Positions 1 to 30,579 of a stretch of 64,000 bases of DNA are shown in pieces. Source of the stretch: Microthyrium microscopicum (Eukaryota > Ascomycota > Dothideomycetes > Microthyriales > Microthyriaceae); the NCBI GenBank assembly GCA_010405405.1, contig MU004239.1:484713-548712 (forward strand). The letters are read 5' to 3'. A program made the position numbers and the translations under genes. Positions within the stretch are counted from its first letter, which is position 1, and each line of letters opens with the position of its first letter. The notes beneath the pieces are model-generated. The model was not told where the DNA came from, did not search any database, and worked only from the letters and a program-made list of their open reading frames with translations.

Positions 1-360
1 TATTTTACTTAATACTAGACTATATAATTAACTTTAATACTAAAATAATATTAAAAAAATACTAAATTTAAACTTTATCCTAGAATGGTTAGTCTAAGAA
101 GAAAACTAAGACTAGTATTAGAATCTACGTAACTAGCTAATTCAAATGCTATAGTTTTTATTAGATTTAAAAAACTAGTATTAAATAATAGTAAATACTA
201 GTTATTATAATAATATTATTACTAGTTAGTAACTAGTATTAGAAAATACTAGTCTATTAATTAACTATTCCTAGAGTATACTAATACTATTTAGTACTAG
301 TATTGAAAATAAAAAACTAGTCTAGTACTAGTATTGGCTGATAATAGAGTAGACTAAATA
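1..360. repeat. AT-rich, probably RIP-decayed block
   Basis: Almost only A and T, with the hexamer ACTAGT or close variants (ACTAGTA, TACTAGT) recurring many times in both orientations, separated by TTA/TAA runs. No reading frame is seen. Such TpA-rich, C-poor DNA is what repeat-induced point mutation leaves of old repeats in ascomycetes. The block ends sharply near 360, where ordinary base composition begins. The parent element cannot be recognised. It could also be the edge of an AT-rich isochore. Confidence 0.6.
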
Positions 361-2368
361 GTTTACTAACCCTGTCTGGTAGTGTGCATGTTTCGGGCCT
401 TTTCGCATTCAACACAAGAAAGAGTCACATTCAATCACAATCACATTACAATCACATTTCACATAAAAGCAAAGAAAGATATTCTTCAAGTTAAGGCTCA
501 AACAGCCTACCTTGAGTCACAATTCACATAAAAGTCATATCTCCTCATTCTCAATCGCTTTAAACCGCAACACCCATTCAGATACATCCTTATCGCCAAT
601 CAATTTTAATATCGATAATCGACATCATGGATTCAGATTCCACGTTACACAACTTAGAAGAGTTCATGTCCTTCCGTGCAGACCACCTTGTCAGGCACCA
701 CAAATAATCCTTGTGAAAAGCTCAACGTGTGGAAATACTCCGAGCCAACTATTATTGATTCAAGCCAGCATATTGTGTCATGTTGCATACATTCTTTGCA
801 AGGTTGGTATAATAACAAGGTCTACATGGTTCGTCCTGAAAGGTTAGACTTGGCTTATGTTTGATGTTCCTTACGAATTCTTTCTGTTCTTCGTGTCTAA
901 AGCTTGGAAGTATCTTTTAGCATTTTTATACCAAGTAGCGTCGTTCTCTAATGCAACATAAAAAAAGCAACGACCGTGCTATCCATTGATATCTGCAGCC
1001 CAAGCGTGCATACATGAAGATTTACTGCACTCTGCATGCACATTCGAGGGGGTCTTGCTCCCAATCTTCCATCTTTCCCCTTTTTATACCCTCTCTCCAC
1101 ATCAAATGCAAGCTCCATCCAACGGTTCGCATAACATCTGCATACCTTCACAACCAACAAATCCCACGAAGCCTATGCAGTAATCCATCTCAAGTAACAC
1201 AAGAATCAATATCACATTCAAGGCGATATCCATCTCCGCAATCATGTGCAACGCGCCTCACTGGCCCGCCCCACGTCTTCATCTGTGCTCTGCAGGCTCT
1301 GAACCCGTCACTCGGATCCGGAGAATAAAAATGATATTTCCCGCGCGGCCAATAGTTTGCGTTGCGCGTTCGAACGATAGCGCCGCACGTTCCATCATCT
1401 CGCATCGTCTTCACCACTTGTATCGTATGTTGTCACAACTGTCAGCAACCATATTTGTTGATGGTTGTTCTACCGTTTTCTTCACTACCTGGAGAGCGGC
1501 TCGTCATCTGATGTAACGTCCCGCTCCACTTAGCATCCAACAGACCGATGACGGTTCATCATTGGATGCGGTGTTTTCTAGAAGAATTAAGAATGTTGCA
1601 GGTGCGGATAAGGGGAGAACGGCGCGGCTGGCGCGGCGCGGAATTATAGATTGCGCGATCTTGGCTGCATGTAGGTTAGATGGGAGATCTGATGTGTGCT
1701 TATTCCTCCTAAGGTTTTTTAGGTTACGCTGGTGCGAGGCAAGGGATGATGTTGGGGTTGAAGGTTGGGGGTCGCGGTGGTGGTTTAACGCGTGTGTGTT
1801 ATCTTATCTCTCTGGTGGTCTGTCTCCGGTGGGGATGGAAGACGGTTTAATGGCTGAGATATAGGTAGCGTGAAAAGGTATCTGTGTAGATTTGAGTACA
1901 AGGCTGATGGACATATGATGGGATTCGCGGTGGTCGTTTTGCTTGTTTTCTGCTTGATGTCGTTTGGATCAAGTCCACATGTTGCCAGACTATACTTCGC
2001 TTATGGAGCATTAGGTGGCATATTCTAGGCGTGGACTCCTAGCCTCTCATCGACTTGACTATTAGAGGTCGTGTGTATATTAGAGCGTAGTGACACGACT
2101 GGCCATTTATGGTGCTAGCCGGAATCTATACGGTCAATGGGTTGCAAGAAGTGACTGTGCGAACTATCACAACTACGGGCGTTAAAAAGGATACCCAGGA
2201 TTGAACAAATGTAATGTAATATAACAATAAGGGTAGAAACGGACAATCTATGCCTGTCTTCAAATACCAATACCATATGTCTCGCTTTCATGGTAAAATA
2301 TGCAGGCTGAAATACTCAAAAGCCAATAGCGTTGCTACTGTTTAGATATAGAATATGCCATTCCACGT
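361..2368. other. Intergenic stretch without a supported gene
   Basis: Several frames of 60-110 codons are open on both strands, but none shows a recognisable motif or a convincing splice pattern. Bases 510-870 carry overlapping short frames that could be the remains of a small gene. The rest is unremarkable except for a G/T-rich patch near 1730-1830. Confidence 0.4.
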
Positions 2369-5104
2369 TCATAAAGGAGGGTCATACGTCCATATCATCT
2401 CATGGCTATGATCAACATCCTCGCTGCTGGTCGCATATCGTCCTTGCTCGACGTATGTACTAAATGTATTGCTCATGTGGAGAGACTGGCCAGCTTCATC
2501 TTTCTTTCCATAAACTTGCTCCCGAAGATGATTGAGCCTAGCTTCAGCTCGCTGTACTGTGTCCTTCACCTTCATACGTCGCAGCGTGCGCCGCAGCAAA
2601 ATAGATTCCTCGCCAGTCTGAATATACTGCAAAATATCTGGCAAGTGCACAACGGTTGCGTTTGAATAGACGTCGGTTCCCTGATTCATCTCTTTCTGGA
2701 GCGTTGCTTCCTGGGAGGGCGCTTCTCTCGTCGTCTTTGCCATCTCTGCCATCTCCTGGGCAAGATATTCCCATGCAATCATGTCTATCGCCATTCGGTC
2801 TTTTGCCATCTGCTCTATTTCCATCTGTTCCTCTGCCAATTGTCTCTGAGCCATAGGCCCTTCTGCTGTTTGTCCCGCAAACACCAGATCGCGTTCTAGT
2901 AAATCCTCTTCAATCCATTCCAGATCAGTTGACTCCTCATCTGACAAGTCTTCGTCGAAGGGTTCCTGCGCCAGTTGGTCCTGCTCCATCTGTTGTTGCT
3001 CTTGGGCCTGCTCCATCTGTTGCTTTGATTGATCTTGCTCCATTTGTTGTTTTATTTGATCCTGCTCTATCTGTGCTTTAAGTTGGTCCTGCTCGATCTG
3101 TTGTTTAAGTTGATCCTGCTCAACCTGTTGTCTTATACGGTCCTGTTCTATCTGTTGCTTTCTTTGTTCCTGCTCCATCTGCTCACCCTCGATCTTTTCT
3201 TTCCCCACAAGCACTAGCTGGAGTAGCTGGTCTTGTTTCTGCAGTCTTCTCTGTCTGCGCTCGAATCTCTGAGCCTCCGCAGTCTGCATGTGCGGAGACA
3301 ACGACTTCGTCATATCTTCCAATATCTCGTTTGACTCTCGCATCGTTATTCCTTGTTGCTGATCAAGAATCCTGTCGATAAGTCTGTCTGCCTGAACATT
3401 ATCTGAGTTTGTGACCAGTCGCATTGTAACGGCGCCAAGTTCCGGTGAGCATCCCAGGTTTGCTGCCCTTTGAATCAGGTCTCGGTTTGCGATTAGATCT
3501 ATCGTAAAGTTATCCCAGCTATTGGTCAATGCCCTCGCTTTCCAGTCTTTCCAATACTTGGCAACGTATTCAGAACTCGACAGTATGAGTGTCTGAGATG
3601 CGCGATCTAACGATGATTCTTTCCGGCAAAATTCGATTGCGAGCTCAAGGCCTAAAACCAGAGCTTCAATTTTGGCACGTATGGTTGTGAGCCCCGAGTG
3701 GTTGGGAAGAACTCGTACAGATCCAAAGGGATTTGAGCCTTGAGATTTGAGAATAGCCGCAGCGGCTCCTATCTTTTGGCCATCGTCAGTGTTCCTACAG
3801 TCTCCATTGATATGAAGGACTAAGGGACCAATCGGTTTTGCCGCTTTCTGCGCAAGTTGGGTAAGTTGCTCTTTTGCTCTTTGTTCTTTCACTCGCTTCT
3901 CTTCTGCTATCCTTTTTCTAGCCATCTGCACTTGAATCTTTAGCTTCTTAGCCACTTCGTCTTGTCCCGGCAACGGTGATTCCTTCAACTTGGGCTCGGT
4001 CAAATTCTTTCTTGGTATTTCGTCTTCGGACGGTTCATCTTCAGATGATTCATCCTCAGTCAAATCAACCTCCGTCGAATCACTTTCTATCAATCCACCT
4101 GTTGGTTTCCCCTCTGTCGATTTACCCGTCACAGGTTCAACCTCTGTCATTTCACCCTCGGTCGATTCACTTGCTGTCGACTCGTCATCTGTTGATTCAT
4201 CGTCTGTCGATTCACTTTCCGTGGATACATCGTCCATGTGATCTGGTCGTCTCCGTTCTTGATCCAGGCGCTCTTGCTCTAGTCGCTCTTGTTCAAGTCG
4301 CTCTTGTTCAAGCCGCTCCTGCTTAAGTCGCTCCTGTTCCAGTTCCTCTCGCTCCCGTTCTCGCTCCATCTTTTTCATTAGCTTACGTTGCCGTTTGCTC
4401 TGCCTTTTGCTTTCGGGGCGATCTATCTGTTCTTGACACATTTCCTCCACATTCTCCATCTGTTCCGCCAGCTTACGTTTTCTCTGTCTATTGCTCTCCG
4501 GCTCCTTCGTCTTCTCTGGCTTCTTTCCTCCATTCTGGTCTTTGAGCTTACGGTTTCTTTCCCCTTTTGTTTGCTTAACTGTGACCATGATCGTCTCTAG
4601 TGTCTCCAAGGGCATCCTGTTTTTTCTCCGAAGGTTACGCGCTTTTCGCAGCTGTGTCTGGTAAATTATAGTCGCCCTCATCACCGCCCTTTCTGAGGTG
4701 CATCGGAGCTCCAGCTCGCCAAGTTCTTCAGAGCGTGCAAGAGTTGCAGCCTTTTCAAGAAGATCCTGATCTTCAAATGGACCTTTCGTTGAACTTGACG
4801 GTTGTCTTAGCCAGGAAATCAAGTCTTTTATCACATCGCCATCGGCTGAGTAAAGGTTGGTTCCAGAAGTCTGATCCGGAGATTGTTTTTTGTAGTAGTC
4901 CAGCGCGAATTCTAGGCCGAGAATGATAGCTTCAAGTTCAGCACGACGGGCCGTAAGCTCTGGATGCTGGCCTAGCAATCGCATGCAGCCCGTTGAACCT
5001 TGTTTAGAGGGTGCTCGCAGATGAGCCGCAGCAGCTCCTGATGCAATGGGATGACGATCATTAAGGCAGGAACCGCTGACCCGAACGGCGACGTTCCCTA
5101 TCAT
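2369..5104 (-). CDS. Two-domain RNase H-like protein with long repeat-rich coils (911 aa)
   Basis: A single open frame with no intron needed. Residues about 5-155 form an RNase H type I-like fold: a start strand (VRVSGSC), the AELEAIILGLE helix and a YSADGD strand. Residues about 160-290 are Lys/Arg/Glu-rich and end in LEQER-type repeats. Residues 290-370 are acidic Ser/Thr-Asp/Glu repeats. A second RNase H-like domain spans about 425-580 (LHINGDC, AKIEALVLGLE, NVQAD), followed by eight 9-residue Gln/Glu/Lys repeats (about 640-715), an acidic patch and a C-terminal coil. Catalytic acids are largely lost: Ser10 replaces the first Asp in domain 1 and Asn replaces it in domain 2, and the third Asp of domain 2 is Ser. 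Both domains are therefore probably non-catalytic and may bind nucleic acid or act as scaffolds (inference). The C terminus shares a motif with the 324-residue neighbour at 7488-8462. No function is known to me. Confidence 0.7.
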   Translation of the reverse strand: MIGNVAVRVSGSCLNDRHPIASGAAAAHLRAPSKQGSTGCMRLLGQHPELTARRAELEAIILGLEFALDYYKKQSPDQTSGTNLYSADGDVIKDLISWLRQPSSSTKGPFEDQDLLEKAATLARSEELGELELRCTSERAVMRATIIYQTQLRKARNLRRKNRMPLETLETIMVTVKQTKGERNRKLKDQNGGKKPEKTKEPESNRQRKRKLAEQMENVEEMCQEQIDRPESKRQSKRQRKLMKKMEREREREELEQERLKQERLEQERLEQERLEQERLDQERRRPDHMDDVSTESESTDDESTDDESTASESTEGEMTEVEPVTGKSTEGKPTGGLIESDSTEVDLTEDESSEDEPSEDEIPRKNLTEPKLKESPLPGQDEVAKKLKIQVQMARKRIAEEKRVKEQRAKEQLTQLAQKAAKPIGPLVLHINGDCRNTDDGQKIGAAAAILKSQGSNPFGSVRVLPNHSGLTTIRAKIEALVLGLELAIEFCRKESSLDRASQTLILSSSEYVAKYWKDWKARALTNSWDNFTIDLIANRDLIQRAANLGCSPELGAVTMRLVTNSDNVQADRLIDRILDQQQGITMRESNEILEDMTKSLSPHMQTAEAQRFERRQRRLQKQDQLLQLVLVGKEKIEGEQMEQEQRKQQIEQDRIRQQVEQDQLKQQIEQDQLKAQIEQDQIKQQMEQDQSKQQMEQAQEQQQMEQDQLAQEPFDEDLSDEESTDLEWIEEDLLERDLVFAGQTAEGPMAQRQLAEEQMEIEQMAKDRMAIDMIAWEYLAQEMAEMAKTTREAPSQEATLQKEMNQGTDVYSNATVVHLPDILQYIQTGEESILLRRTLRRMKVKDTVQRAEARLNHLREQVYGKKDEAGQSLHMSNTFSTYVEQGRYATSSEDVDHSHEMIWTYDPPL
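2970..3185 (-). repeat. 27-base tandem repeat coding for EQDQLKQQI-type units
   Basis: About eight in-frame units of nine codons lie in the 911-residue protein. The consensus is E-Q-D-Q-L-K-Q-Q-I/M. Units differ by a few bases and copies towards the end are more diverged. The translated stretch should form a long Gln/Glu/Lys helix. Length differences between strains would be expected here. Confidence 0.85.
3990..4345 (-). repeat. Acidic ST/DE repeats followed by 15-base LEQER repeats
   Basis: Two adjoining low-complexity tracts are encoded in frame. At 3990-4235 there are Ser-Thr-(Asp/Glu) units such as STDDE, ESTDD and ESTEGE. At about 4255-4345 there are five to seven copies of a five-codon unit (LEQER, with LKQER and LDQER variants). 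Both look like in-frame satellite growth inside the gene. Confidence 0.8.
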
Positions 5105-5860
5105 CTTGGCCGGGATAGATGATGCGAAGGTGATGGCTGAAGTTCAAGGTATCAGTCGAAGTGGAATATGATCGGATCCATGTGCTTCATCTCCGGTGAT
5201 GCTTGGAAAGTGGCTTGGATTGTCTCACACCCCCTGGATAGAAAGGAAAAGATATTGTCTGAACTCTCGGACATTAAAGCTCTGCCCTATGTCTACTGGC
5301 AAGAAGTCAGAACGATGGGAAGCTACGCGAACAGTGAGGTTGAACCACGCGATGATATATGCACGGGCTAGTACGAATCGGGATTGGTGGCTGAAGGAGC
5401 AAGGCCTCAACGAAGCATGGAGATTGAGGATATATAACGGAGAGTTGAAATGTTGAGACATCTCATGAATTTCAGAGATGTCAGCGTAACCGAAAGTTCC
5501 AAATATGTATTAGAGCTAAAATTGAAAGGCAGTTCTGGTACACACCACAGTGTGGTCGATCTTATCACCACCTCATTCTCGGGAAGCAACAAGGCAGGGA
5601 GATTGGCTACTTTCTCTATAACGATACTGTCTACTTCAACGTAGAGCGCAGATGAGGATATGACTTAGCTTTTATTAGTCTTGAGATAGCTGATCTCAAC
5701 TATTTGGTTGGAATTAACCATATTTCCAAGCTGACAGGTATCACATTCGCTTGAAGACGCAAATCAAGATCAAAAGATTGAATCCACATTGACTAGTACC
5801 AACATCAATAACAATACAGATGACTCCGGTAGTCAAGTAGCGAACCCGAGCTCTCCATGT
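5105..5860. other. Spacer between RNase H-like loci
   Basis: No convincing gene. Short frames near 5196-5640 have no motif. A small perfect inverted repeat (TTGAGAT, five-base loop, ATCTCAA) lies near 5682-5700. Confidence 0.4.
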
Positions 5861-6385
5861 CTATCCCTGTTCATTCAAAGCGCAGCTGCAATATTCGTAG
5901 GCGCGGCCATTGTACAATGGTAATATGAAGATATATCGCACCTTCCCAAGGCTACACATCTTGTCATGAAGAACCTTTGCATATCGAAGCAGATCATGGT
6001 TTGCCATCGGCAGGCCAGAAGAATCGACCCAGCCGTCACGGTGCCACGTGTGAATACCTCTCTTCATGCAGTGGATTGCGTCCTGAGAGGACGAGTATAT
6101 GGAAAGATCGAGCGGAGGGCCCCATTTCAACTTATGCTATTTGGTCCAGGCGGCTTCCAGCGCCATGATGATCGCCGCGAGTTCGGCTCGAATTTTTGTA
6201 GGCCTTGAAAGTTTTGGTAAGTGACCCGTCCAAACTACATGGTCCCTAGTTGAGCGCAAGTCTTGCACAACCGCTGCTGCACCGGCCCATGGAGTACGTC
6301 CGTTGTTTCTGCAGAGACCATAGACTTCAAAGCGCATAATGAACCCCATTGTTGACTCTGGATGTAGATACAGGAGTGGTGTCAC
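5861..6385 (-). pseudogene. Interrupted third RNase H-like copy
   Basis: Reading on the minus strand from about 6349 (MGFIMRFEVYG), the translation follows the RNase H type I layout: a first strand with the CRNNG turn, the AELAAIIMALEAAW helix, then after one in-frame TAG near the middle the same frame goes on with a DLSIYSSSQDAI strand, a GWVDSSG turn and a NHDLLRYAKVL helix. The order matches the neighbour at 7488-8462 (VDGGCRGNG, AELEATILAL, HADSRYAV, GWLNAKG, NRDLIF). Catalytic Asp residues are replaced (Tyr in strand 1, Ser in strand 4), and no final Asp is visible. There is no coil or C-terminal extension. It is probably a dead duplicate, although stop readthrough or an unrecognised intron is possible. 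Its order with the other two loci points to tandem duplication. Confidence 0.6.
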
Positions 6386-7487
6386 AACAACTCGTGTCTG
6401 TCATGAGTTTATCGAGTCAGCTTCTTGGCTATCATGAGCGTGGAACATCCTTCTTACAATGCAAGTAGCTCAGTACTATTTCGCCAACCGGAGAATGAGT
6501 TCGGATACTGTCTGACGGGGGATGGAGATAAGTGATGCATAAGACGATGGCGGCCAGTGAAAGGTGAGGTGTTTGGAGCAATGATGGTTTACGCTGTGAG
6601 TATAGCATATGACGAGAGATAGAGAAGCGAGGAGAAGTCCAGGTCGGAGACACTTTGAGTGCTGTGCGTCCGGTCCTGTCAACAATAAGAAAGCTGAAGG
6701 AAGCGACGTCCACGACTCGACATCTGGGCCTCCACCCGAAGGATAGAGGCAAGTGTAATGGATAGAGTCCGTAGCTTCCGTGAAACAAAAATGGGTCTTG
6801 GACATCTGCAAAGACTCACAAGAAGGACCATGCCGGAGCAATTCGACCTATTCTGAGCCTATGTGTTCCTTCTTGTATCCTTAAGTTCTTGGCCAGTGAG
6901 GTATTCCGGAATTGCCATCATCGTTGCTTGTTGAAATGATCAGGTCTCGAGAAGAATCCAATACAATTATCCAGATGGAACAATCAGACGAGGGAGATAT
7001 GTACCTGGGTAAGTAGTGAGTAGTTCCCAAGGGTCAAAGCCCCACAATCAGTAGGTACTTGACCAATTACCGTGCATAAGGCTGAAAGTGTCAATCAGCC
7101 TTATCTTATCCTCGCCTTTCTAAGCGATCAAAGAGAGGCATTTCCCGCCCAAGTTTTGTGCAAACATGCTGGCTGCACCTGAGGATTCGGGTTTTTTGAA
7201 TGATGTTCTTTCATGCTGAGTTTCGAAATGCTCAAATCATTGCACAAGCACAGCCCAAGCTTCGCTTAAGAGCACAAGTACGAGGGCAGAACAAAGGAAG
7301 AGAGATATTAAGCTGTCATCCGAGGAGAGGTCCAAGATTATAGAAGAGCACTCGGCAAATATTCGAGAATACCAGACTGTCAGACAGCTCATCATGAGAA
7401 GGCTGGATTGAGTACTTCCAAGTTCGCAGCAACAAGCAATTCCCTAGAAGTAATCCATATATCTAATTCCAATCACTGAATTTGGAG
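6386..7487. other. Intergenic stretch between RNase H-like loci
   Basis: Open frames of 120 codons or fewer on the minus strand (6432-6841) have no recognisable motif and overlap each other in different frames. Nothing else is supported. Confidence 0.4.
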
Positions 7488-8462
7488 TTAGCGTATGCCT
7501 TGGTAATTACAGAGCACCACATTTGGCCAGTTGGGAGCTTGATGTAGATCTTGCTGACACTTACGTGTATTGGTTCGCTCGGGGGATCTTAACCCCATTG
7601 CTCGCTCAGCTTTAAGCTGACTGGTTTTAATAGCTTCTTGACGCAGCTTTTCCTGGTTCGATTTATCTCTTTCCATGAGACGGCGGAGCACCGTAGCTTC
7701 CTCCTGCGACTGGATGTCCTGGATTATTCGAAGGACGAGAGTGCCTTCTTTGCTGGGTTTGTAGGTGTTCCACTCTGGTCGCTCCCCATACTCCTTACAT
7801 GCGAGCTCCACCCACAAAGTCTTCGTAGCTGATATTTGCCTTTGCCGAGCTTCTTCTTGCTTCATTCTTTGCACTCTAGCTATTTGCTCGGCCTGCTCCT
7901 TCGCCCTCTGCTTTTCTCTTTCCAGTTCTTGTTCTGCCCTTTGTCGTTCTAATATACGGTTTTGCTTATTCCTCGCGTTCCGTTCTTGTCGATCTAGCTG
8001 ATCATTGCAAAGTGCGTCCGCTTCTACGTTCCTCTCTCGTGGGATCCAAATGACTTCGAGACCTCCTTGTGCTCTCAACTGGTCCCTGAGCTGTGCAGCT
8101 TCAAATATGAGATCCCTGTTGACAACAAGTTCCCCCTTTGCATTAAGCCAGCCGCACTGAGACCATTTGTCACACCAGAGGTTCATGCAGTCAACTGCAT
8201 ATCGAGAATCGGCATGTATCTTCGTTCTGCGAGGCCTGCCTACCCGTACCCTAGTGTATATCTCGCGTGTTCGCTTCAAGGCAAGAATGGTAGCTTCTAG
8301 TTCAGCGCGTTGACTGGTGGGCTTGCGGGAAGGGGGGATTGCCTGCTTGAGACACAAATGTTCGCGGCCAGAGGAAAGCACGACTCCTATGGCTCCTATG
8401 GCCTGAGGAGTGCCATTGCCTCTACAGCCACCATCTACAAAGATGGACAAGCTGTATTCCAT
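7488..8462 (-). CDS. RNase H type I domain protein with coiled-coil tail (324 aa)
   Basis: Residues 1-160 form a complete RNase HI-like domain. The four metal-binding acids are in place: Asp10 in FVDGGCRGNG, Glu54 in AELEAT, Asp85 in HADSRYAV and Asp149 in ERNVEADAL. It should therefore be able to cut the RNA strand of RNA-DNA hybrids. Residues 160-215 are a Glu/Arg/Gln-rich coil (ERQRAEQELEREKQ) and the remainder is charged and helical. Near residue 245 is IQSQEEATVLRR, resembling IQTGEESILLRR near the end of the 911-residue protein at 2369-5104. Start chosen: the first Met directly before the first strand. The stop is at the low edge. It has no mitochondrial leader and no hybrid-binding domain of eukaryotic RNase H1, so it is not the usual housekeeping enzyme. 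An origin from a mobile element's RNase H is possible but nothing else of such an element is present beside it. Confidence 0.75.
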   Translation of the reverse strand: MEYSLSIFVDGGCRGNGTPQAIGAIGVVLSSGREHLCLKQAIPPSRKPTSQRAELEATILALKRTREIYTRVRVGRPRRTKIHADSRYAVDCMNLWCDKWSQCGWLNAKGELVVNRDLIFEAAQLRDQLRAQGGLEVIWIPRERNVEADALCNDQLDRQERNARNKQNRILERQRAEQELEREKQRAKEQAEQIARVQRMKQEEARQRQISATKTLWVELACKEYGERPEWNTYKPSKEGTLVLRIIQDIQSQEEATVLRRLMERDKSNQEKLRQEAIKTSQLKAERAMGLRSPERTNTRKCQQDLHQAPNWPNVVLCNYQGIR

Positions 8463-9272
8463 TATGCGACGTAATTGATGGCAAACGACTAGTGCTTTGC
8501 GTTAGAGGCTAAGTGTTGTGCTGGACTGTGCAGTTTCGCGTCCTCACAGTAAATAGAAGTCGGGTACTTCGAGGTCAACGTGAATGAAGCAACGTGTGAT
8601 TGTTTAATGTTGAGGTTGGTAGGTAGCAGTACTCTATGAGAACGGAAGTGGATAGAGAAGCACCTCAAAGGTACGAATTCAGTGGTAGCGAATGGGTGCA
8701 CATTGAAAAGATGCTGACGTGAAGGCGATGATGATTGCTCACTTCTAGGCGTCTGCATGCATGATAAAGCCAAACACGATCATTGGTAGACCATTGGTGT
8801 TCTAGATCAGCAATCGAAAGTAACTATCCAATCGGAGGATTTCCATACTGCGCAAGGACTTAAGGAGACATGGTGGTGGATCTTACCCCAGTTCTAGCAA
8901 GGATTTGAGATGATGTGAACACGGCAATTATTGCTGCCGTTTAGCTTTCAACTCCTTGTCGAGTCCTCCCGTTACAGTCATTCCGAAAGACTATTTTGAA
9001 ATGGTCATATATAAAACTTTCAGCGACTTGAACAGCAAGGAATCTTGATTTATGACTCTTTGAATTTCGCCAGAAGAACTGATCAAGATGGCTCAAACAG
9101 GTGTTGTTAAAGCAAGCTCTTAAACTTTAAGGTGATAGGAGAAACCTGCTTCAATTTGCTATCAAGAAGATCTTGCTACGCACACCACATTAGAGCGTAT
9201 ACAAAACGACACCAAAGATAAGATCGATCGTGTTATACAGTCAAAATCTGTGTAAAAAATCCAAAGATGAAA
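8463..9272. other. Intergenic stretch without a supported gene
   Basis: Only short motif-free frames. A TATA-like run (CATATATAAAAC) occurs near 9006-9017 but no gene can be tied to it. Confidence 0.4.
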
Positions 9273-9717
9273 TCAAGTCTCCTCGAAAGGGTTCATTCCT
9301 GCACTTGAACAGGCAGAACAGGCGGGTAGATCATTGACATTCAATTTCGAAAAGTCGACGTCCATGCCAGTCGAATGTTGTGGCAATTCCTTCACGGCAT
9401 GATAATTCATGTGTCCCATTCTTCGGTGCCATAGCATCGCCGCTTCAATAACCTTGGGATCGGTGGTATTTCTCTCTAGAGCAAATATGTTAGTCATTAA
9501 TAACGAATATGATGAACGTGGCATTACTGTATTTAGCTTCAAATTCAGCTTGCTGTTCTTCGCGGAACCCATCAATCAGTTTCTTGGCTTCATCAATGTC
9601 CTCAGGGAATTTCAGGCCGTAGGAAATCATGAATTGTGGCATGCCATCATAACCGGCGTCTTTCAACCATTTCGAATCGGACTTGTATTTGGGTTCGATC
9701 ACCTCTAGAACAACCAT
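9273..9717 (-). mobile_element. Fossil fragment resembling Ty1/copia gag-pre-integrase
   Basis: The downstream half encodes a stretch with the gag-pre-integrase signature of Ty1/copia retroelements (WHRRMGHMNY, followed by a CSACSS pair of cysteines). The upstream half (VIEPKYKSDSKWLKDAGYDG and beyond) does not look like a copia protein and may be host sequence. No reverse transcriptase, integrase core or long terminal repeats are seen nearby, so this is a small isolated remnant, with about one break in the frame. It might be a captured piece within a small host gene. Age cannot be judged. Confidence 0.45.
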
Positions 9718-10125
9718 GATGAGACACGAGAAGCGCTGCAGGAGAACTGTATAGTCTTGCTTGAGAAATAATTACAGAAATACGAAGGAGAGAGTATTGA
9801 TTCTGAGAGGTGGAGTAGTGGGTATATAACTTCAAGTTAGTAAAGAAGATATCGAGCAATGCGGGGAAAGTTAAGTACAAGTACGGTACATTTGCGTCAA
9901 CTGCATTTCTACCCCTTACTCTCCCCTGTCCTGCCTTGTCAGCGGAAACAAATACCTTGCGCACGGTATGTATTATATGCCAGCAACGTAAACCCCTGAC
10001 TTGTATACACTCGAATGCTGGCTCCACATTCAATATCGCACTTGTCATAGACTCATAGTCTGTGGTTTTGAGAAGTCGCTTTCATTTACCTACCGTAAAC
10101 TGCTATCGCTAAGGTCAACCTCCAA
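9718..10125. other. Short intergenic region
   Basis: It lies between the fossil fragment on the minus strand and the plus-strand gene that starts at 10126, so it may act as a two-way promoter region. No specific site is recognised. Confidence 0.35.
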
Positions 10126-11938
10126 ATGGGATCCAGCAACTCGGTAGAAGAAACGCTGCAAGCTGAGCCCAGGCAAGCAGGGCCATTTGGCGTGGATCTT
10201 TCTGACCTTCCACCGGCAGCGCCTAGGACTCTTGACTGGGAAAAATGTGCTCATTTACACAACACGATTTTGGGAATGGCATGGGCCACATTAGGTGAGA
10301 ATAGAAAACCACGGTCGTGGTGGGACCACTATTTTGGCGTTCGAGATGCTGGTAAGCTTTCATATTCCAGGTGTAGGAGATCACCATCTATTAACATATT
10401 TAAAGGTAGTGCACCGTTGATGGATGATTATAATTCAGCCACCGCCAACGAACTGGAGGAGCGTTTGCCAGATGCTCTGATCTGTTTCTTGAAATCAGCT
10501 GGCCACGAGTACCCACAATCAAATGACGATTCACACTTCTTTTACTACCTTAAAGAACTTTGTAGTCCCACTACTATTTTGGCGTCTTTGAAAGGAGAAT
10601 GGGAGCATTGTTGGGAGATAAAAGATCGCTACATATGCTTATACGATAACATTTATGAAGGCTTTGTCGTGTAAGTCATCCGTCAACTCACTAATACTCT
10701 AGGTGTATGCTCACGTTAAGGTATATTGAGTTTGGACATAATAGAGATGAAAGCACGGCAGTCAGATGATTATGACCACGAATACCGTGAGGTAGTGTTG
10801 GAAGAAATTGGAGAGGGAGCCGCGACATGGCCAACTTTCGAGTCGATGCTTGAAGCATTTGTCGATATGGTGGCTCAGGGTCGGATCACAGCGCTCGACA
10901 AAGACCCTGAACTTCCAGCACAAGAACACCCTCAAGATGACTGGATAATGAATCTGCAAATGGACGTACCGTGGTATCTGGAAACAATGCACGACGAGAA
11001 AGTTGTCGATAGAGCAGTCTCAGCATGGCACGACTTGCTATCAGTTATCAGCTCTCGTCTACCTACACCCGCCGTTATGACTGAACCTCAGTATTATGGT
11101 AAGCAGTGCATCAACGAATGCAACGTTCCAGGTCTGTTCATCAGAAAGTTCTTGCGAAGAATTGCTCTCCCTTCCTTCACATATATCGCCCCAGGGCTAC
11201 GAGTGCCATCTCCCGACGAACTGTCCAAACAACCTTTCAAAGACAAAACTCACGCGGATTTCCCAAAATGTCCTGGCATCAAGTGGAGAAAACCTCGCCA
11301 GTTTTTATACTACCCGTTTATCTTGCTTCGCACGGGAAAAATGCTTTCGCAGGAGAAAAACCAACCTGTAAGTGTTCTAGGGAAGAACATCCTCCTATCG
11401 CCCTGTCACTGCTCAGCCCATTATGCCTTTGAAATATAGCTAGTGATCAGTTAGGTAGCACCGCTCCGGCTCTCTTGATCTTTCAAATAACCATTTCTAG
11501 GTTAGCACTGACATCATACTCCATGGCGATCCATGGCAATACAGCTCAACGTTTGAAGCTGGGCTCTATCTTCTACCTTCTGCGGCAATGGAGCGACCAG
11601 ATGGCTGCAGACTATTGCTTCCATATCCACTCACGCCTCAAAAGTGGGTCAAGTACGGCTCTGGTGATTTGCTTCACAAAGAGGATAGATTTGATGGTCT
11701 ATATCAGGGCCAACGTCAAAGTCGAGGCATGCGGCACTACCTTCTTCTTGGTGAACCACAAGATCCGTGCTCGGAATGGTGCCTGCGTCTAGAGCTTTTG
11801 CTACAAAATTGGAAAGATATGGTTGAGAAGGGTCATTGGAAAGTTGATGCAGATGGAGTGGCAGGAGGAATCGATATGTTCAAAGAAGCTGATTCGGAAG
11901 ACAAGTGGGACTTGTATCATGTCCCGAAAACTTGGTGA
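10126..11938 (+). CDS. Unrecognised fungal protein, three exons (about 539 aa)
   Basis: Three coding blocks fit together in phase: 10126-10670, 10731-11367 and 11501-11938, with introns of 60 and 133 bases (GTAAGT donors, AG acceptors, a CTAAT branch-like site in the first and a TTTCTAG acceptor in the second). A further optional 54-base intron near 10353-10406 is open in frame and cannot be ruled out. The product is acidic, rich in Trp and Glu, and seems soluble; no signal peptide or membrane span is seen. Notable stretches are WWDHYFGV, EEIGEGAATWPTFESML and YVHVPW-like VPWYLETMHDE. I recognise no domain. It reads divergently from the fossil fragment to its left. The first-exon acceptor is the weakest call. 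Confidence 0.6.
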
Positions 11939-12902
11939 GCTAGTGCCTACAATGAGTGTACTCGATATGTTTCTGCTCAACCAGCAGTAACCTAAAGATA
12001 TCAAAGAAACACAATCTGCTTGCCTGCTAAGATGTAGGTGTTGCTCTCGTCATTGCACACTAACTTGATATAATCTACCTGTCAAAGTCTTTGTCGAATT
12101 TGAACCATGTATTCTTTTGTGAATATCCCCATTACTTACGGATTATCATTCCAAGTTCATGAGAGCTGTTTACGTCTCTGGTGACATAGGTAATCTCCCA
12201 ACCAGGTAAATAAAGAGTACAATGGTGCCCTATTTGAGCCTCTGATGATCGCGAGTACCGTTAGATTTACAGGACGTAACTGCACAGATCTGTGAATTGT
12301 GGCGAGTCAAGAGAATATCAGGGTTGATGTTATATCATAGAGTGATGTGTTATATGATCAAGCTTTCGGATCAGTCCATGATCTACGAACGATCTAACTA
12401 ACACACATTTCTTAACATGACTTCCAAGCAAGTATTACACTTACACTATAGCATACATTGAAGGCATACGTCAAGGACATTCTAAAGTACTGTTTATGAA
12501 AGCGGGCCAAATCACGCGGGCCGCGCAACGAGTCGGATGTTCCGATTGTAGGGGAATGGCAAGGTTAGGTTACGATCTCCAGATTTATGAAGCGACTTTG
12601 TGCGGCTCAAATCTATAGGTCGACTTTATCCAAAACCAGAAAAATGGATTACATCGTCTAGCCAGCTAACCTGGCTCCCCCGCAATGTTCTTTATATGTT
12701 ATTCAGTACTAATGACGGGTATCCCGAAACGAGAGGCCAACAGTAGTTCATGAAAGTAGTGAAATTAGTGAGAACAATATCAACCCTAGATGACCTTTAG
12801 AGATGACATATAATAGAGACAAAGACCCTTTCCGCCTTGTCTTTGAAAAGCTATCCCAACAACTAATCGCAAAGTCACTCCTTTTCAAAGTCAGATATCA
12901 TC
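11939..12902. other. Intergenic region upstream of the secreted hydrolase
   Basis: No gene supported. The last 200 bases probably carry the promoter and leader of the hydrolase gene starting at 12903. No clear TATA element was picked. Confidence 0.4.
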
Positions 12903-28064: not shown

Positions 28065-30579
28065 ATGGGCCAGGTTGGGTTTCTTTCGCTGCTGTTGGCT
28101 GGCAAGGCGCTTGCTGCACAACATCACCTCTTCACATCGTCGTTCTCTACACCTAACCTTTACGCCCTGGAATTTGACGACGAGACAAACACTCTCATAA
28201 ACGTTGCGAACATTACTGCAAACTCGGGGCACCCATGGCTATCCTTTTCGTACGACAAGGCTAACCTGTATGCTGAAGAGGCTGGCGCATTCACATCATA
28301 CACAGTCGAGAACAGCACATCGCTCACAAGTCCCAAAAACCTCAAAGTCGGCGCTCAATGCGGACCAGCAGCTGCCGGGGACAATGGCGCTGGAGTAGTC
28401 ATCTCAGAACAACGTAGACCATTCAGTGTCTATGGCGCACCAACAGGCTCATGCGGTACGGTAGTGAGCGTGTCGACTGACGGCCGTCTGGACAAAGTCG
28501 CACAATCCTTCAAATACAGAGATGGAAGCTCCATCAAAGGATTCGTTCTGGACCCGGACAATAGGTTTTTGTATTCGGCAGACTCGGGTGCCAATGGTAT
28601 CTGGACACATGGAATCAATGAAGCTGGAACTACTGAAAATCCGGTATTCACTGCGCTTCCTTGGGCCAATGCTGGACCTAGGAAGCTTGTTGTACATCCT
28701 AATGGAAAGTATCTATATGTTGTGCTGTCCCGCCGAAATCAGGTCGCTGTCTTTGCTATCAATAGCGACGCGTCGTCAATCAGGACTCCGCTAACATCTA
28801 CTGGAGTCACTTACTCCATACTCCCTGGTGGTATGTGATGACTCCATATACTTCTGGCGCACGCTAATGCAGAGTCTAGATGTCAATCCTAGCGCATACT
28901 CCGCCGACGACGTTTTCATCTCAGCAGATGCCAATATCCTATTTGCGAGTTCGCGCTACCGCATCGAACAGCAACCCAACGGCGCGCGAGACGACGAGGG
29001 CAGGAAAGGCTACCTTCGAGCTATCCTACTCACCAGTCTAGTCGAGGCCGATAATCCTATTGCAGGTCGCCAGGTCGCCGCTGGATTCCCACTGAAGTCA
29101 CTCTTCCATATGGAACTTCGCACCGGTGGTGGCTACTCGAATGCTATCAGCCCAGCCCCTTGGGCCAACGACTACTTCGCCATGGCAGATAGCGAATACG
29201 GCATCATCGATGTCTGGAAGATTGACGGCATGGAGTCTGTTGAATACACTGGCGATCTGGCTCGAGATGCTGCAAGCAGACCTCAAGGCGGCTGGATCAG
29301 CAATGCGTGGAGTCCACGCGGGACTATCAGTACTGTTGACATTGCGCCTGCCCCAGTCAAGACAACGCCAGCGAAACCATTTGGCAATCGCCCGCCTGTC
29401 AAGACTACGCCTGTGCCTGCATCAGTGCCTTCGATTGTTCCATGGGGCGGCGCAAACAACCCACGTCCCATAACTCCCCGTCCCGCAATGTCCACTGCTG
29501 CTCCTCCCAGTTCCAGCGCTGGATGGGGTGAGTGGCTCGGAAGCATAATTGGAGGATTGGGAGGAGGAGGACAGTATACAACTGGAGGGACCTGGGGAGG
29601 TGATCGAGGAAGTGATCGAGGAGGTGACCGAGGAGGCGATCAAGAAGGATATGACTGGAACAGAGGAGGCGAATGGAACAGTCGTGGAGGAAGCGGAGGT
29701 CGTGGAGGAGACGACGACGATGATGATCGCCGATATAACACACGTTTCCCAGGCCGAGCTGTCGCAACAGGTCTGGTCAAGCGTCAGCTACATCTCGCTC
29801 CTCCAGTGGCCAAGACCACCAGTCCAGTCCCAGCAGCTCCTCAGCCATCAACATCTACTGCTGCGCCGCCAGCTTCTGCGACTATTGCTCCTATCCCGAA
29901 GGCTTCACCTGCACCGACGACTCAAGTACCCATTCCACCACCAAGTCAAGCACCCGCACCTTCGAACCCAGCTCCAAAGCCAGTGTCCATCGCCTCTCCA
30001 CCTGCTCCTCCACCAGCAGCGCCAGCACCTCCTCCTCCGCCTGCTCCACCAGCAGCACCGCCAGCAGCACCACCAGCATCAAGATCAACCACCCTCCCCA
30101 TTCAGACACCCAAACCCATTTCCGGCCCACCACCACCACCAAAGGCCATCCCAGGCCCACCCCGTCAAGAACCACCACCCGCCTCACAAGCCGTTCCACC
30201 ACCGCGACCCATCTCCGGTCCACCAGCAATCCCACCACCACCACCCTCCCCATTCAGCAAAACCACGCCCGCGGCTGCACCAGCGCCAACCAACAAACCA
30301 GGCGTAGTAACAGCACGCATTATCGCAAGCTGGCAAGCACCGGCGGACGGCGGCGTAGCAGGAAGACGATATGAAAGTGAACAAACGGAGGGTATGGGAC
30401 CAGCACGAGCACGAGTGGTACCGCATGGTGGACTACAAGTGAAACCATGGACAGGTAGTAAGAATAGGAGGCGACAAGTAGAGGAGACTCCAGAGATGGG
30501 ACCTGCGGTAAAGGGGCAGTATCAAGCAGCGCAAGCGGTTGGGAAGGGATGTTGTGCGAATGCGGTGTGGTTTGATTGA
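28065..30579 (+). CDS. Secreted lactonase-type beta-propeller with long Pro-rich tail (821 aa)
   Basis: Exons 28065-28830 and 28880-30579, intron 49 bases with a GCTAAT branch site. Signal peptide MGQVGFLSLLLAGKALA. Residues about 20-410 look like the seven-bladed propeller of 3-carboxy-cis,cis-muconate cyclase and fungal lactonases (NLYALEFD, GHPWLSFSYD, SIKGFVLDPDNRFLYSAD, PRKLVVHPNGKYLYVV, DVFISADANILFASSR, NDYFAMADSEYGIIDVW). In the cytosolic relatives this opens or forms lactones in aromatic-acid breakdown; a secreted form with this tail could instead have a wall or binding role (inference). The tail adds about 400 residues: Pro/Thr-rich, then GGDRGSDRGGDRGGD repeats, an acidic patch, and a long Pro/Ala low-complexity stretch (about 600-750). 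Such tails are uncommon in the family. Confidence 0.8.
29540..29700 (+). repeat. Gly/Asp/Arg-coding repeat GGDRGSDRGGD
   Basis: In-frame repeats of GGAGGTGATCGAGGA-like 12-15 base units inside the propeller protein's tail, surrounded by GGNG-rich sequence. Confidence 0.7.

Follow-up and report, generated by a model that had tools for sequence, protein, structure and literature searches.

A cluster of divergent RNase H genes with intact, degenerate and broken members in the fungus Microthyrium microscopicum

Three RNase H loci on one strand

Here we present an analysis of a cluster of genes for type 1 ribonuclease H (RNase H) domains in the dothideomycete Microthyrium microscopicum (assembly GCA_010405405.1, contig MU004239.1, positions 484,713 to 548,712 of the forward strand). 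The window, meaning the whole stretch of 64,000 nucleotides that was analysed, holds three loci inside about 6 kb which together carry four such domains. All features of the cluster lie on the minus strand and are given in window coordinates. This arrangement had been proposed from the letters and translations alone, in what we call the sequence-only reading, and is upheld by the open reading frames (ORFs), by Pfam and by tblastn. One ORF (7488..8462) encodes a protein of 324 residues that opens with a type 1 RNase H domain (about residues 4-160) and goes on to a charged tail rich in Gln, Glu and Arg and a C-terminal motif; it was recognised from the ORF, PF00075, PHROG 531 and phmmer. Another (2369..5104) encodes 911 residues comprising two degenerate RNase H domains, a repeat linker and a repeat tail (ORF, tblastn, PHROG). 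The longest stop-free run in 300 simulated 6-kb sequences of the same dinucleotide composition is 260 codons, versus the 911 observed. The third locus (5861..6349) is a broken RNase H copy with a single in-frame stop, one of the four catalytic acids and no tail (ORFs, Pfam, tblastn, alignment).

The RNase H domain of the 324-residue protein (7983..8462; Pfam and alignment) matches PF00075 with an expectation value (E) of 4.4e-15 and 56.5 bits, against a curated cut-off of 25.8, and PHROG 531 'Rnase H' matches the protein at E 1.3e-27. A phmmer search of the PDB finds human RNase H1 (E 2.9e-6) and E. coli RNase HI (9.2e-5); with the NCBIfam model for ribonuclease HI the protein scores 56 bits, under the 160-bit cut-off. 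By alignment the D-E-D-D catalytic set is complete (D10, E54, D85, D149), as had been claimed for this protein, and a segment resembling the basic protrusion is retained (W96-N116). The loop reads IPRERN where classical RNase HI has a GH motif, and the catalytic-loop histidine is absent. The N-terminal hybrid-binding domain of eukaryotic RNase H1 finds no Pfam match in the protein, whose RNase H domain begins at residue 4.

Compared with RNase HI and H1 (PF00075; E. coli, human), the 324-residue protein shares the fold, the set of four acids and a segment like the protrusion, but differs in the lost loop histidine, in having no Pfam match to the hybrid-binding domain, and in the added charged tail and C-terminal motif. 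A His-less loop is also found in archaeal-type RNase HI (Halobacterium, Sulfolobus tokodaii). According to the accessible part of its description, the Halobacterium enzyme is active without the catalytic-loop histidine and lacks the basic protrusion as well (PMC9719913), unlike the 324-residue protein with its protrusion-like segment. Because Halo-RNase HI works without that histidine, and because the segment is kept here, it is plausible that the 324-residue protein cleaves RNA-DNA hybrids. The nearest proteins among the retrieved loci are phage RNases HI (for example IMG/VR loci L034 and L047; 31% identity over 159 columns, E 4e-18), which have the DGGCRGNG motif in common with it but keep the GH loop, and none of them is tailed.

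The sequence collections searched were viral, prokaryote, plasmid and phage and contained no fungi, so absence of relatives from them is uninformative for fungi. Relatives of the 324-residue protein numbered none from the one viral contig stretch, and relatives of its RNase H domain none from 46 stretches of prokaryote genomes. A motif pattern recovered 18 loci in viral contigs, six of which match the protein (tblastn, E up to 0.01) and are RNase HI-like. Against 641 plasmid and 635 phage records tblastn gave matches, ten listed for each set, that are likewise RNase HI-like and fall below 60% identity and 80% query coverage. Free-standing RNase H proteins that start with a DGGCRGNG-like motif occur in many Pezizomycotina; if this holds, the 324-residue protein would be ordinary and the doubly dead 911-residue protein the unusual part of the cluster.

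The degenerate domains and their relationships

Domain 1 of the 911-residue protein (residues 1-165; 4610..5104) was delimited by tblastn to domain 2, and domain 2 (residues 416-590; 3335..3859) by tblastn to the 324-residue protein (E 2.2e-11) and by PHROG 3265; both are further supported by structure models and Foldseek. Pfam finds nothing above cut-off in the full protein (RVT_3, E 0.016), and domain 1 in isolation gives RVT_3 at E 0.15. PHROG 3265 'ribonuclease' matches residues 472-549, within domain 2, at E 7.5e-5. The catalytic acid sites align to S10, E56, A87 and T145 in domain 1 and to N433, K478, S510 and D573 in domain 2. Each domain thus keeps one of the four, and neither has the full set of an active RNase H. 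Different acids were lost in the two domains, so at least two of the losses probably postdate the internal duplication.

Failure of structure prediction to give an RNase H fold in the 911-residue protein had been named as a refutation of the earlier proposal, and it did not occur. AlphaFold2, run on 21-sequence alignments that combined the three window domains with 18 RNase HI-like proteins, returned an RNase H fold for both domains, with a predicted local distance difference test score (pLDDT) of 86.9 for domain 2 and 85.1 for domain 1. Both models follow the order beta1-beta2-beta3-alpha-beta4-alphas-beta5-alpha, from alignments that included true RNases H. In Foldseek searches of the PDB the best E for the domain 2 model is 2.3e-8, and RNases H make up the best 50 of 83 rows (E <=0.001); for domain 1 the best E is 1.4e-7, and RNases H are the best 50 of 79 rows under the same threshold. 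The sequences of both domains are, by these models, compatible with an RNase H fold.

The broken copy consists of two ORFs (6137-6385 and 5861-6130) in a common frame, separated by one in-frame stop at 6137-6139, in agreement with the earlier description of this locus as interrupted. Its first piece matches RVT_3 at E 2.6e-4 and 21.3 bits, just under the cut-off of 21.6, and the second gives PF00075 at E 0.026. The four acid sites align to Y, E, S and Y, the glutamate alone being retained. No homology to a tail was found downstream in the three frames examined, and the copy ends with the domain. A spliced reading that skips the stop was considered and rejected by reasoning, because the protein alignment with the 324-residue protein crosses the stop without a gap.

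The four domains are supported by sequence comparison as one RNase H family. Within the window, tblastn connects the 324-residue protein to the broken copy (2.7e-17) and to domain 2 (2.9e-11), and domain 1 to domain 2 (1.2e-15) and to the broken copy (1.9e-4); the links between the 324-residue protein and domain 1 (0.010) and between domain 2 and the broken copy (0.022) are weak taken alone. With 500 shuffles per pair, the observed score was never reached in any of the six domain pairs, the smallest margin being 61 versus 53 for the broken copy and domain 2. By alignment, none of the four has the GH motif that marks classical RNase HI. A tree of 22 rows, comprising the four window copies and 18 bacterial or viral RNases HI, splits the window copies from the others on a branch with support of 100/98, in a tree whose bootstrap is unsettled and which carries a long-branch warning. 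The intact copy has a branch length of 0.32 and the degenerate copies 2.53, 3.35 and 5.27.

How the two domains of the 911-residue protein arose is most simply explained by local duplication. For the three genes it is plausible, but chance neighbours from a dispersed family would look alike. The earlier proposal of local duplication followed by loss of catalysis and growth of repeats is supported in part, by the single family, the loss of acids in three of four domains, the long degenerate branches and the repeats.

Outside their RNase H domains, the 324- and 911-residue proteins consist of 48-56% K/R/D/E/Q. The linker between domains 1 and 2 (3860..4609; 56% of these residues by composition) contains two runs of five-residue repeats in 15-nucleotide units found by repeat search, one LEQER-like (4257-4343) and one rich in Ser, Thr and acid (Glu) residues (4020-4225). 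The earlier note had described two degenerate domains joined by repeats; the linker bears this out, and the placement was incomplete, as the C-terminal tail is repeated as well. There, a QxEQDQxKQ-like nine-residue repeat in 27-nucleotide units runs for about 7.7 copies (2975..3181), with an autocorrelation of 0.61 at nine residues. A nine-residue spacing is at odds with a plain heptad coiled coil.

The two proteins also have in common an ungapped motif of 32 residues near their C-termini (residues 246-277, 7632..7727, of the shorter and 824-855, 2540..2635, of the longer). The match scores 55, a value reached by two of 5000 shuffles. A first, longer comparison scored 56, reached by none of 1000, and the best score among 185 open 75-residue pieces of the window, used as a control, is 35. 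The shared motif suggests one ancestral gene with an RNase H domain, a charged tail and this C-terminal motif, from which the two genes would have arisen by whole-gene duplication.

Retained pseudoenzyme, decay or mobile element

We favour, with moderate confidence, a reading of the locus as a cluster of RNase H paralogues in which the 324-residue protein is a working RNase H, the 911-residue protein a retained pseudoenzyme and the broken copy a dying third member, the cluster in its present form not being a retroelement. It builds on the homologous domains and their order, the lost catalytic residues, the motif common to both proteins and the modelled folds given above. The 324-residue protein is most likely a working enzyme, judging from its four metal-binding acids, its substrate-binding protrusion and a His-less loop like that of some archaeal RNases HI, and its charged helical tail and C-terminal motif probably serve self-association. 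The 911-residue protein would share this plan as a paralogue in which the RNase H domain is present twice, both halves have lost catalysis step by step and repeats have lengthened the charged stretches. As the fold was duplicated, the acids were lost and the frame was kept, a binding or scaffolding role is indicated. Such a pseudoenzyme would hold RNA-DNA hybrid or duplex RNA uncut; alternatively, it may pair with the active 324-residue paralogue through the shared C-terminal motif and restrain it.

If the 911-residue protein is expressed and retained, it would be a natural non-cutting two-domain RNase H, and possibly a hybrid reader, beside a probably active paralogue. A further step, which we consider improbable, joins the two proteins into an enzyme-pseudoenzyme pair forming a switchable, previously undescribed system. 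The 911-residue protein would act in it as a two-headed non-cutting reader of hybrid or duplex RNA, assembled through its charged repeats and coupled to the active RNase H by the motif.

The strongest alternative is decay without function, in which an RNase H gene was duplicated and the extra copies lost catalysis and drifted. The 911-codon frame would then be open merely through replication slippage, adding in-frame repeats in multiples of three bases, and through the short time elapsed. A stop already present in one of three loci, repeat units of 15 and 27 nucleotides, an uninformative codon usage and the loss of three of four acids in three of the four domains all suit this account. Against it stands the openness of domains 1 and 2, which share 52% of aligned nucleotides: in neutral simulation to the observed divergence, with four divergences tried and 2000 runs for each, not one run left both copies free of stops.

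Selection was assessed from the proportions of nonsynonymous (pN) and synonymous (pS) differences. Five of the six pairs were tested, and in all five pN is below pS with bootstrap intervals below zero, a further point against decay, although part of it can be explained by constraint before the acid losses. For domain 1 against domain 2, pN is 0.41 and pS 0.68, a difference of -0.27. Since alignment by protein score biases pN/pS, neutral control runs (n=300) were made; at distances d of 0.6 and 0.8, which match the pN of this pair, the lowest differences are -0.15 and -0.24, and the observed value lies outside both. The two dead domains have diverged less at the protein level than is expected of neutral copies. 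We consider decay without function rather unlikely.

Several observations weigh against the favoured reading. Synonymous codon scores (-0.026 for the 911-residue ORF and 0.008 for the 324-residue ORF) fail to separate either from random pieces (random 600-mers -0.018, standard deviation 0.042; nine comparison ORFs -0.010 to 0.076). Because codon usage is uninformative, coding status rests on open frames and homology. The neutral spread at d 1.0 is wide (2.5% point -0.42), the difference for the 324-residue protein against domain 2 (-0.24) is not clearly beyond neutral expectation, and constraint on the domains may predate the loss of catalysis. Isolated domain 2 has no Pfam family and finds no RNase H among PDB sequences at E up to 10, and the true RNases H in the model alignments bias the models toward an RNase H fold. 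The C-terminal motif sits within a charged helical region, and the statistical support for it is modest.

A retroelement origin would make the RNase H domains descendants or remnants of the RNase H of a long interspersed nuclear element (LINE; Tad1-like) or of a long terminal repeat (LTR) element. On its side is a piece of a Ty1/copia gag-pre-integrase domain (PF13976, E 1.7e-9) at 9273-9575, on the same strand and 0.8 kb upstream of the 324-residue gene. The accessible parts of the Sclerotinia and Botrytis genome papers also class PF00075 with transposons. Positions 1-10100 contain 43 stop-to-stop ORFs with 70 residues or more, of which we scanned 26 with Pfam, shorter pieces lying outside the scan; most of the remaining 17 overlap the three loci in a different frame. 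Apart from the copia piece, the 26 gave no match to a reverse transcriptase, integrase, endonuclease, gag or other retroelement family, and no other copia domain was matched in the scanned ORFs around 9273-9575. The gap from this piece to the 324-residue gene is 810 bp, too little to fit both an integrase and a reverse transcriptase of usual size.

The closest solved relatives of the 324-residue domain are moreover cellular RNases H1/HI. Retroviral enzymes rank lower, and two of them either contain an inserted E. coli loop or match with poor E-values; the retained protrusion segment argues in the same direction. A match of the loci to fragments of one retroelement, named earlier as a possible refutation, finds no support in the scanned ORFs, where none is visible; the cluster as it stands looks like a divergent gene family rather than a retroelement. 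A retroelement origin, older descent from a retroelement RNase H included, is on balance improbable.

A defence or surveillance role, raised as a possibility by the sequence-only reading, would have the proteins recognise or degrade RNA-DNA hybrids that stem from invading elements; it seems very improbable: fast divergence, clustering, the mixture of active and dead members and the retroelement remains nearby would suit an arms race, but neither protein matches a PADLOC-DB family (0 families, in a database of anti-phage systems only), and no immune or silencing gene is linked among the ORFs examined, leaving the proposal unsupported.

Precedents and neighbouring sequence

For the paralogue cluster with a retained pseudoenzyme, precedents exist in part. 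Fungal Ssd1 is described, in the accessible part of the source, as an RNase II family protein that is not an enzyme and binds RNA without cleaving it (PMC8934651); it shows that a nuclease fold can persist in fungi as an RNA binder, but as it belongs to another fold and family it serves as an analogy only. The pol product of human immunodeficiency virus joins a dead RNase H-like connection domain and an RNase H in one chain (PMC3985635, accessible part). This resembles the 911-residue protein in coupling a dead RNase H-like domain to another RNase H domain; the 911-residue protein differs in having no polymerase and in that both of its domains are degenerate.

No description of this RNase H layout was found in searches of open-access literature. 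Zymoseptoria genes annotated 'Ribonuclease H-like domain' were judged unrelated because, in the part of the source available, they are grouped with DTA or uncategorised elements. RNase H genes that stand alone in fungal genomes can readily be missed, since at least two genome papers, in their accessible parts, file PF00075 under transposons.

Elsewhere in the window Pfam identifies Utp13 and MutS-family genes, and other genes seem to be split into exons, so that by its proteins the stretch resembles DNA of a filamentous ascomycete. The window contains no transfer RNA and no bacterial layout, and Rfam gives zero matches over 1-12000. Positions 1-750 are AT-rich (guanine-plus-cytosine fraction 0.30), with diverged TA-rich direct and inverted repeats, a TpA/ApT index of 1.30 and a (CpA+TpG)/(ApC+GpT) index of 0.78, values that we take to resemble repeat-induced point mutation (RIP) by the thresholds we assume. 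Across the cluster (pieces from 2251 to 9000) TpA/ApT is 0.51-0.82, which by the same assumed thresholds is not RIP-like, and RIP was rejected as a reading of the cluster. Next to the cluster, two plus-strand ORFs without a Pfam match (10099-10674 and 10726-11439) are perhaps parts of one gene. Farther along the plus strand, at 28065-30579, a lactonase-type beta-propeller ORF (PF10282) is followed by an overlapping ORF with long proline/glycine-rich repeats, and the two possibly form a single intron-split gene.

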